Source: Oscillospiraceae bacterium
GTDB taxonomy: Bacteria; Bacillota; Clostridia; Oscillospirales; Oscillospiraceae
NCBI GenBank assembly: GCA_009782435.1
Contig: WRJA01000020.1
Coordinates: 1 to 33,067, forward strand
Direction: 5' to 3'
Length of the DNA stretch: 33,067 nucleotides
How positions within the stretch are numbered: position 1 is the first letter of the stretch; each line of letters opens with the position of its first letter. Made by a program: the position numbers and the translations under genes. Under the pieces are notes generated by a model. That model was not told where the DNA came from. It ran no database searches and saw only the letters and a list, made by a program, of their open reading frames with translations. Of the stretch, positions 3,038-5,727 are shown one piece after another.

Positions 3038-5551
3038 TCAGTATACGATCTCTTTTTTATACCTCAATGTCGTCATGAAACCTGTAAAAGAGCCGAACAT
3101 CAGTAAAAACGCAACCGCCGATATGCCCGGGTCTTCGGTCGCCGGCATATCGCCATAGGGCGGCGGGTCTTCGGGTATCCATTCCTCAAGCTCGGGGTCC
3201 CAGCGCCAAGTGGTCGTCGGGACGCCGTTATCGTCGAGTTCGGTCCAAGTGTCCGGATCGTCACCCGGCACGAGATTTTGACCGGGCGGCGGAGGGCGGC
3301 GCGGCGGATCTGTCGGCGGCGGAGGCGACGACTCCGGCGGGGGTGACGTTTCGGGCGGAGGCGACGGGTCCGGCGATGGGGACGGGTCCGGCGACGGCGT
3401 CGGATCGGTTCCGCCTTCTTCTCCGCCGCCGGTCGGCGGCGAATATGTATTGGTGAAGACGACGTCTTTTTCATCAATGACTTGGTTATTTTTGTCCCTG
3501 TATGTGACTTCCGGCACGCCCGCGGGACTGACTCTTACCGTGACCCGGAACACTTCTTTGCTGTAGCTCCAGCCGCTTGCGCCGGCGGCGGTCTCCGTCA
3601 CTCTGAAATAACAGGTCTCTCCGGTCACGAGGTCATCGAAAACAAAGGAAAAATCTTTATCGCCGGTCACTTCGATCGTTTTCGTCCTTCCGAGGGGTTT
3701 CAGCACAGCGCCGTTTTCATCTTCCGTTTCCTCGATCTTAAAAGTAAATGTCGTATTGACAGTTCCGGCGATCCCTTTGACCTCTTTTTTGCCTTTTATG
3801 ACCGCCGCTCCGGCCGGGGGCGTATAGGAGTTTGTGAAGACGACGTCTTCTTCTCCTATATTATTGTTGTCTTCGTCTCTGTATGTGACTTCCGTATTAC
3901 CTGAGCCGTCGACGGTCACCGTGACTCTGAACAATTCCGAGCTGTAAGTCCAGCCCGGCTCGCTGCCCTTATCCTCAGTTACAATAAAGTAATAGGTCTC
4001 GCCGTTGGTAAGTTCTCCGAACAAAAATGTAAAATCATCCGCGCCTGTCACCCTGATCACATCGGACATTCCGCTTGGTACGGGAGTGTCATCGTATTCC
4101 CCCGTCACTTCCTCTATCCGGAAAGTGAATTGGGAATAGGAGGGCGCGTATATACTCTCGAACGCTTTTTTTCCTTTGATTTCCGCTTCGCCGGGAGGAT
4201 GTATATAAGTGTTTGTGAATTTGACGTCTTCTTGTCCGATAAGATCGTTGTCTTCGTCTCTGTATGTGACGCTCACCGCGCCTTCGCTATCGACGGCTAT
4301 CTCGACCCGGAACAGCTTGTCGCTGTAACCCCACTCCGGTTCGCCGCAGTCGACTTCGGTTATAATAAAGTAATAAGTTTCATCGAGCTCTAAGTCATCG
4401 ACCGTAAAATTAAAATTTCTCGCGCCGCCGTGGCCGGCCAACTCGATCTCATCTGTCCTTCCGCCGCTTTTGGGAGTATCATAGTTTTCGTCTGTCATTT
4501 CCCCGATCAGGAAAGTGAATGTCTTGTTGAGCGCTCCGGCAATATCCTCAACAATTTTCGTTCCGCCGACAGTCGCTTTGAAAGACAGATCAGGGAATCT
4601 GAGAGTGATGCTTCTCTTTACGCTGCCGGTCTGGTTTTCCGCAAACAGCGATACCATTCTTTGATATTTTGAGCTTGAGTTCGGCCCTTGATCTGTTCCG
4701 TAAAAAGCAAGCCAGCTCGGATCAAGGGGCGCGCGCGAGCAGATAAATAAGTCGGTCAGAGGAACGTCTGAATTCAAATATGAGAAAGGCGCTTTGATCG
4801 TCAAAACGTCCGTGCCGCTTCCCGTAAAACCTGAGATCGTTACATCGGCAGGTTTTTTTGAAGCGTCAATGGTGTATTCACCGTGTTTGTATGTGAGAGA
4901 AACCGTCGTTGTCCCTTCGAACCCGCTCCCTTTTTGTTCCATTTCCACAGTCACCGGGGAAACACTGAATTCAGGCATTATGCCTGTTCTCGCGGATGCG
5001 ATCAGATAGTCAAAATAAGCTCTGTAAGCCGTGCTCCATGAGCCGGCTTTGATTACAGATCCCCCTATGTAACTTTCGTTCGTATAGCTTCGCCTGAATT
5101 CGTGCCCGTTTTCGTTCATCCAAAACCAAAGCGCCCATTGAGTCAGCGCCTGCGCGTCGTCATTTGAAAGGCCGCCGCTGTAATTCGGATACCCGTTAAA
5201 CAAAATGGCGCATACACCGTTGTATGTATATTCCGGATAAGTCGTTTTATCAAAAATGTCCACAGGATCGGAGATACTATTGTAATTCACACTCTCAATC
5301 GGACCGTTCCGAGACTGATCAATGCAATACACAGGTCTGGTTTCCCCGGAACCTCTGAAGTATAACATCGCGCTGACGCCTCCGTTGGCGTAGCGGCCTT
5401 TTATGCCTGTCAAATCAGCGCCCGACGCGCTGATTCCCCAACCGGGATAAGTATAAAAAGCGTATACGCCCAAAAGCAGCCAGACAAGCAGCCAAGTCTG
5501 CAGTTTCCCTGCCCTGCTGCTGTTTGATGTTCTTTTCGCATCCACCGGCAT
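3038..5551 (-). CDS. Surface adhesin with thioester and isopeptide domains
   Basis: This protein of about 837 residues appears to be a wall-anchored adhesin. A basic start is followed by a hydrophobic segment (about residues 17-36), consistent with a signal peptide. Residues 50-200 resemble a TQXA-type thioester domain: VYCID with Cys76 and TQWALW with Gln138 could form an internal thioester for covalent attachment to host or matrix. Three repeats follow, each with a Lys (332, 462, 589), a Glu in 'TE' (399, 526, 653) and an Asn in FTN-[TS]-Y (447, 574, 701), the FctA-type isopeptide pattern. Then come a Pro-rich stalk (714-758), MPATED (802-807), a membrane segment and RYKKE. The longest frame starts at 5665, but that codon lies in the promoter. 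ATG 5551 follows GGAGG closely, and GTG 5545 has better spacing. No sortase gene is visible. Confidence 0.82.
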   Translation of the reverse strand: MPVDAKRTSNSSRAGKLQTWLLVWLLLGVYAFYTYPGWGISASGADLTGIKGRYANGGVSAMLYFRGSGETRPVYCIDQSRNGPIESVNYNSISDPVDIFDKTTYPEYTYNGVCAILFNGYPNYSGGLSNDDAQALTQWALWFWMNENGHEFRRSYTNESYIGGSVIKAGSWSTAYRAYFDYLIASARTGIMPEFSVSPVTVEMEQKGSGFEGTTTVSLTYKHGEYTIDASKKPADVTISGFTGSGTDVLTIKAPFSYLNSDVPLTDLFICSRAPLDPSWLAFYGTDQGPNSSSKYQRMVSLFAENQTGSVKRSITLRFPDLSFKATVGGTKIVEDIAGALNKTFTFLIGEMTDENYDTPKSGGRTDEIELAGHGGARNFNFTVDDLELDETYYFIITEVDCGEPEWGYSDKLFRVEIAVDSEGAVSVTYRDEDNDLIGQEDVKFTNTYIHPPGEAEIKGKKAFESIYAPSYSQFTFRIEEVTGEYDDTPVPSGMSDVIRVTGADDFTFLFGELTNGETYYFIVTEDKGSEPGWTYSSELFRVTVTVDGSGNTEVTYRDEDNNNIGEEDVVFTNSYTPPAGAAVIKGKKEVKGIAGTVNTTFTFKIEETEDENGAVLKPLGRTKTIEVTGDKDFSFVFDDLVTGETCYFRVTETAAGASGWSYSKEVFRVTVRVSPAGVPEVTYRDKNNQVIDEKDVVFTNTYSPPTGGGEEGGTDPTPSPDPSPSPDPSPPPETSPPPESSPPPPTDPPRRPPPPGQNLVPGDDPDTWTELDDNGVPTTTWRWDPELEEWIPEDPPPYGDMPATEDPGISAVAFLLMFGSFTGFMTTLRYKKEIVY
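3443..4582 (-). repeat. Three tandem isopeptide-domain repeats
   Basis: Three coding repeats of roughly 120 codons lie at 4582-4205, 4186-3824 and 3805-3443. The repeat ends are most alike, sharing the patterns LFRV-x-VxV, VTYRD-(E/K)-(D/N)-N and V-x-FTN-(T/S)-Y; the similarity is also visible in the DNA. Internal duplication of a stalk domain is the simplest explanation. Confidence 0.85.
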
Positions 5552-5678: not shown

Positions 5679-5727
5679 TCGAATTCAGATATGCCGGCCG
5701 TTATTAAGCCGGCATATCTGAATTCGA
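5679..5727. repeat. Perfect 20-bp inverted repeat between divergent genes
   Basis: Positions 5679-5698 are the exact reverse complement of 5708-5727, with a 9-base AT-rich loop (5699-5707). The arms contain GAATTC, ATATG and GCCGGC. The repeat lies 13 bases upstream of the -35 box of the surface-protein promoter and 6 bases upstream of the -35-like box of the histidine kinase promoter. A terminator is not expected between divergent genes and no clean T tract follows. It may be a regulator site, an RNA or cruciform element, or a small repeated element. Confidence 0.85.

Follow-up and report, generated by a model that had tools for sequence, protein, structure and literature searches.

Which protein is encoded by the long minus-strand gene near one end of a clostridial contig, and which of its residues would form a reactive bond? 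The window analysed is the entire 33,067-nucleotide contig (C20) of a draft genome of 2.15 Mb that is 91% complete. The frame is open for 837 codons and the plus-strand frame across 3038-5551 is interrupted by stops. The initial annotation gave no strand and read the gene as encoding a surface fibre with a thioester head and an FctA-type isopeptide stalk. This family call was right, as Pfam recognizes a thioester domain (TED) at residues 73-188 (43 bits against a cut-off of 22, E 6e-11) and FctA (PF12892) in three stretches (88.4 bits against 22.1, E 8e-25). Matches at these E-values lie well outside chance. A phmmer search of the PDB with the full-length protein gave 0 matches, and profiles were required to reach structures. 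The domains, their residues and class and the genome context were read directly from these data (Table 1), and the gene product is very probably a secreted, surface-anchored TIE adhesin composed of a class II TED with a Cys76-Gln297 thioester, a stalk of three FctA domains and a sortase-type anchor.

Table 1. Coordinates of the adhesin gene and its features in the window.
Feature	Position	Strand	Basis
TIE-type adhesin gene, 837 aa	3038..5551	minus	ATG at 5551; ORF and Pfam
N-terminal secretion signal, residues 1-~42, hydrophobic core LQTWLLVWLLLGVYAFYTY	5426..5551	minus	sequence; cleavage site approximate
Class II thioester domain, residues ~46-322	4586..5416	minus	Pfam TED; profile match to 6fwv and 6fwy, nearly full length
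Cys76 codon, predicted thioester-forming Cys (VYCID)	5324..5326	minus	invariant in 30/30 homologues
Gln138 codon, TQxxPhiW helix motif, not bond partner	5138..5140	minus	Gln in 14/30; PMC4450167, PMC6194298
Class II-typical beta-sandwich insertion, residues ~191-290, approximate	4682..4981	minus	model strands; 6fwv/6fwy alignment
Gln297 codon (YQRMV), predicted thioester-forming Gln	4661..4663	minus	invariant in 27/27 where aligned
FctA-like isopeptide domain 1, triad K332-E399-N447	4199..4579	minus	Pfam, alignment, model
FctA-like isopeptide domain 2, triad K462-E526-N574	3818..4195	minus	Pfam, alignment, model
FctA-like isopeptide domain 3, triad K589-E653-N701	3437..3814	minus	Pfam, alignment, model
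Pro/Ser-rich linker, cell-wall-spanning type	3275..3433	minus	sequence
C-terminal anchor module, 78 residues; hydrophobic helix, basic tail	3041..3274	minus	common to ten other genome proteins, E < 1e-7
MPATE at sortase-signal position	3134..3148	minus	eleven siblings have G in place of E

The class and extent of the TED were determined by searching the PDB with a profile of 28 TEDs (275 positions). The profile matched the TEDs of BaTIE (6fwv, E 3.8e-25, profile positions 7-266) and EfmTIE86 (6fwy, E 7.9e-24, positions 26-266), in both cases including the beta-sandwich, whereas the class I TEDs 4c0z, 5dcq, 5a0l, 5a0g and 2xi9 were matched at positions 4-134 only. On this basis the TED, about 275 residues long, belongs to class II. 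SaTIE (6fx6), also of class II, gave a weak, partial match. A class II insertion, a beta-sandwich placed between helix 3 and the last strand, is seen both in the through-sandwich match, which was obtained solely with 6fwv and 6fwy, and in the distance between the predicted bond residues, which is 221 here compared to 171-204 in SaTIE and EfmTIE86 and 129-153 in two class I TEDs. The range of residues 40-210 proposed initially is thus too short, as the TED extends to about residue 322, and residues 190-320 were rejected as a domain of their own because in the alignment they correspond to the class II insertion and last strand. The likening to streptococcal TEDs was off in class, since these belong to class I (PMC6194298); TEDs of both classes are known to form the thioester bond (PMC4450167, PMC6194298). 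An AlphaFold model of the TED (28-row alignment) reached a pLDDT of 74 and a pTM of 0.68 with a poor N-terminal barrel, and its insertion was modelled as strands with mostly high pLDDT. A Foldseek search with this weak model put the EfmTIE86 TED on top (E 6.6e-8, TM-score about 0.33 to 6fwy), followed by TEDs of Cpa; the TM-scores were about 0.3.

Three motifs are described for TEDs: the bond Cys sits in [YFL]C-Phi-zeta, the bond Gln in PhiQzetaPhiPhi, and the third is the helix motif TQxxPhiW (PMC4450167, PMC6194298). The adhesin contains the first as YCID at 75-78, the weak second motif as YQRMV, C-terminal and carrying the predicted bond Gln, and the third as TQWALW at 137-142. The initial annotation had paired Cys76 in VYCID with Gln138 in TQWALW at TQXA-like spacing. 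Both residues are present at these positions in the ORF translation, and the TQ motif exists, but the NCBIfam TQXA model stays under its cut-off (27.3 against 30.4 bits). An iterative alignment was seeded with the adhesin domain and a paralogue encoded on contig C98 and grew to 30 domains of relatives. The column at Cys76 holds Cys in 30/30 domains, the column at Gln138 holds Gln in 14, Lys in nine, Ala in six and Arg in one, and the column at Gln297 holds Gln in 27/27, with three rows gapped. The aligned set was picked by similarity to the adhesin TED, so that conservation of the Cys is partly expected; as judged from these sequences, the informative part of the alignment is the contrast in conservation between Gln138 and Gln297. 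A thioester between Cys76 and Gln138 of a TQxA motif, with a small domain spanning residues 40-210, is accordingly most improbable in spite of the correct placement of both residues: 16 of the 30 homologues keep Cys76 and have Lys, Ala or Arg at position 138, the class II match extends well beyond residue 210, and mutagenesis of a Cpa TED showed a thioester without need of the TQ Gln (PMC4450167). Gln138 was discarded as bond partner on its conservation across the 30 homologues.

The Gln of TQxxPhiW is dispensable for the bond (PMC4450167, PMC6194298), and in solved TEDs it packs on the backbone of the Cys without bonding to it (PMC4450167). The test suggested initially, proximity of Cys76 to Gln138 in a predicted structure, would for this reason not be discriminating. 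In the 6fwy chain, Cys52 and Gln256 lie 204 residues apart, the same spacing as in the published Cys88-Gln292 pair, and among homologues of the adhesin the spacing ranges from 198 to 279. In both structure alignments (6fwv and 6fwy), Gln297 is offset by one column from the bond Gln, known or presumed; in EfmTIE86, the bond Gln in VYQDAVV is one alignment column off KYQRMV of the adhesin by hand count. Since the YQ pattern agrees in EfmTIE86, we read this offset as a slip in register. The predicted thioester is accordingly Cys76-Gln297, to which both the conservation and the solved structures of class II point.

The initial description of three repeats, each carrying Lys, Glu and Asn at matching positions, was borne out. 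In an alignment of the three repeats and 35 related domains, the Lys, Glu and Asn columns are each conserved in 36/38 domains, and the triad is intact in 3/3 repeats. The three stretches are also recognized by NCBIfam TIGR03786 (pilin isopeptide linkage; 42 against a cut-off of 31.85 bits). A PDB profile search with the stalk retrieved the T18.1 pilin (E 4.8e-33) and Spy0128 (E 7e-15), and in these alignments the Glu and Asn of the repeats align with those of both pilins. The best Foldseek matches of a model of the three-repeat stalk (pLDDT 84) were pilins of S. pyogenes (E down to 2.5e-15) and of S. oralis, and the target TM-score against single-domain FctB3 was 0.70 (rmsd 3.4); the low whole-query TM-scores of the model probably reflect its multi-domain nature. 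Like the stalk, the pilin backbone of S. pyogenes (Spy0128/T18.1) is built of isopeptide domains of the FctA type in which Lys, Glu and Asn align, but those proteins are polymerised pilins, whereas the adhesin domains form a stalk inside a single protein whose gene has no pilin sortase close by.

Besides Cys76, the adhesin has four cysteines, two in the TED (114 and 271) and two in the stalk (402 and 647); the class II TED of pLS20 is described with a single Cys (PMC8092201).

The C terminus has the hydrophobic helix and basic tail of a sortase signal, with the motif MPATE compared to xPxTG in its siblings. Related anchors end eleven other proteins of the genome, ten of them clearly (E < 1e-7) and one, on C73, weakly (E 0.09), and in 11/11 sibling anchors a Gly follows the Thr (MPATG, MPSTG, MPPTG, LPATG, LPPTG or LPQTG). 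The ten module carriers are on contigs C3, C7, C14, C40, C54, C58, C80, C87, C92 and C98. The conserved module (WxWDxxxxxWI...PPLxxMPATGD, 70-80 residues) exceeds the usual sortase signal in length, and two siblings, L027 (contig C7) and L018 (contig C40), have long Asp runs ahead of it. Three sortases are encoded in the genome, on contigs C7, C41 and C32; two are of class B above cut-off and the third is class F-like, with a score under the cut-off. Since some sortase signals have a residue other than Gly at the G position of xPxTG, sortase anchoring of the adhesin, as read from its sequence, is likely but not certain. The departure of MPATE from the xPxTG of all eleven siblings, together with the additional cysteines in TED and stalk, could also mark a decaying or non-reactive copy, in which the domains are present, the protein is not wall-anchored and the thioester may go unused. 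Decay would be expected to erode the open frame of 837 codons, the invariant bond residues and the three intact triads, and this explanation is improbable.

As noted initially, the gene stands alone. No sortase or pilin gene, and thus no pilin-sortase operon, was found elsewhere on contig C20; the sortases are on other contigs. A pilin or operon function was ruled out given the lack of such neighbours on the contig. Between the divergent TED and hybrid histidine kinase genes lies a perfect 20-bp inverted repeat with a 9-nt loop (5679-5727), which is single copy in the genome and folds at -38.6 kcal/mol (z -11); it could be an operator or a leader hairpin. On the other side, a Phd/YefM antitoxin and ParE toxin pair (2117-2732) and the TED gene are arranged tail to tail, with a terminator-like hairpin (2888-2921) in between. 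Rfam detected one tRNA only in the window. A search with the kinase, run to compare the gene order of close relatives, brought up many kinases, none of them a clear orthologue.

TED matches were found in 31 of the 149 genomes sampled, the window's own genome counted, and in 0/14 control genomes. The own genome holds two further matches. The C98 paralogue is a 527-aa protein with a Pro-rich stalk, 34% identical to the adhesin TED, and the match on C54 is partial (23 bits); a scan of the contigs with a two-member TED alignment gave no matches. An order-level relative also combines TED and FctA within a single reading frame, and the architecture is therefore not unique. A neighbouring molybdopterin oxidoreductase is 80-82% identical to its closest named matches, in MAGs titled Clostridiales Family XIII bacterium (Family XIII lies within Anaerovoracaceae at NCBI), and one of those three genomes also has a TED matching the class II profile, at positions 6-266. 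The bin names may point to termite guts as the sampled habitat. A literature search on TEDs in the group of anaerobes to which this clostridium belongs returned nothing specific.

Among characterized proteins, BaTIE of B. anthracis (6fwv) resembles the adhesin in its class II TED, three isopeptide domains, signal peptide and C-terminal anchor. Its isopeptide domains are of CnaB type, whereas the adhesin stalk is of FctA/Spy0128 type with Lys-Asn and Glu triads; the bonds of BaTIE are mixed, as one water forms part of its mass loss (PMC6194298). EfmTIE86 of E. faecium (6fwy), the best Foldseek match, shares the class II TED and has a YQDAV bond-Gln motif resembling YQRMV, but differs in its Cys-Gln spacing (204 compared to 221) and in having five CnaB domains (PMC6194298). 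TIEpLS20 (p34 of the B. subtilis plasmid pLS20) likewise has a YCID class II TED followed by an isopeptide stalk (PMC8092201). The adhesin is an ordinary-looking addition to the known TIE family, from an uncultured clostridium.

By analogy with these relatives, the class II TED at the outer end would bear the reactive Cys76-Gln297 thioester, which a nucleophile of the target surface, most likely a Lys side chain, would attack to give a covalent link. Each FctA-type domain would be held fast by an isopeptide bond between Lys and Asn, formed with the help of Glu, giving a rigid, protease-resistant stalk, and the Pro-rich linker and sortase-type signal would keep the adhesin on the cell wall. Bond formation, anchoring by sortase and the adhesive use of the thioester are all modelled here on relatives; for the adhesion step and its target these are SfbI (PMC4450167) and pLS20 conjugation (PMC8092201). 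The TED of SfbI targets fibrinogen (PMC4450167), and covalent binding of a host protein by the adhesin TED is plausible. The TED might instead bind other bacteria in mating-pair or community contact, as in pLS20, where the Cys of the adhesin is required for conjugation (PMC8092201), and the several TED matches in the genome fit with this. The pLS20 gene, by contrast, lies inside a conjugation operon; the adhesin gene lacks such a context, and a reading by eye of the contig's ORFs over its 33 kb turned up no recognisable conjugation genes, so that contact with bacteria rather than a eukaryotic host seems unlikely. Rather unlikely, too, is that an uncultured Anaerovoracaceae-like anaerobe, possibly of an insect gut, uses the adhesin with its non-standard MPATE anchor to bind a non-vertebrate target (gut lining, protist, plant fibre or bacterium) covalently.

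For any mutational or mass-spectrometry work on the class II TED adhesin, Cys76-Gln297 is the corrected pair. If the prediction is true, covalent adhesion chemistry, which has been studied mainly in pathogens, would extend to commensal or environmental clostridia.
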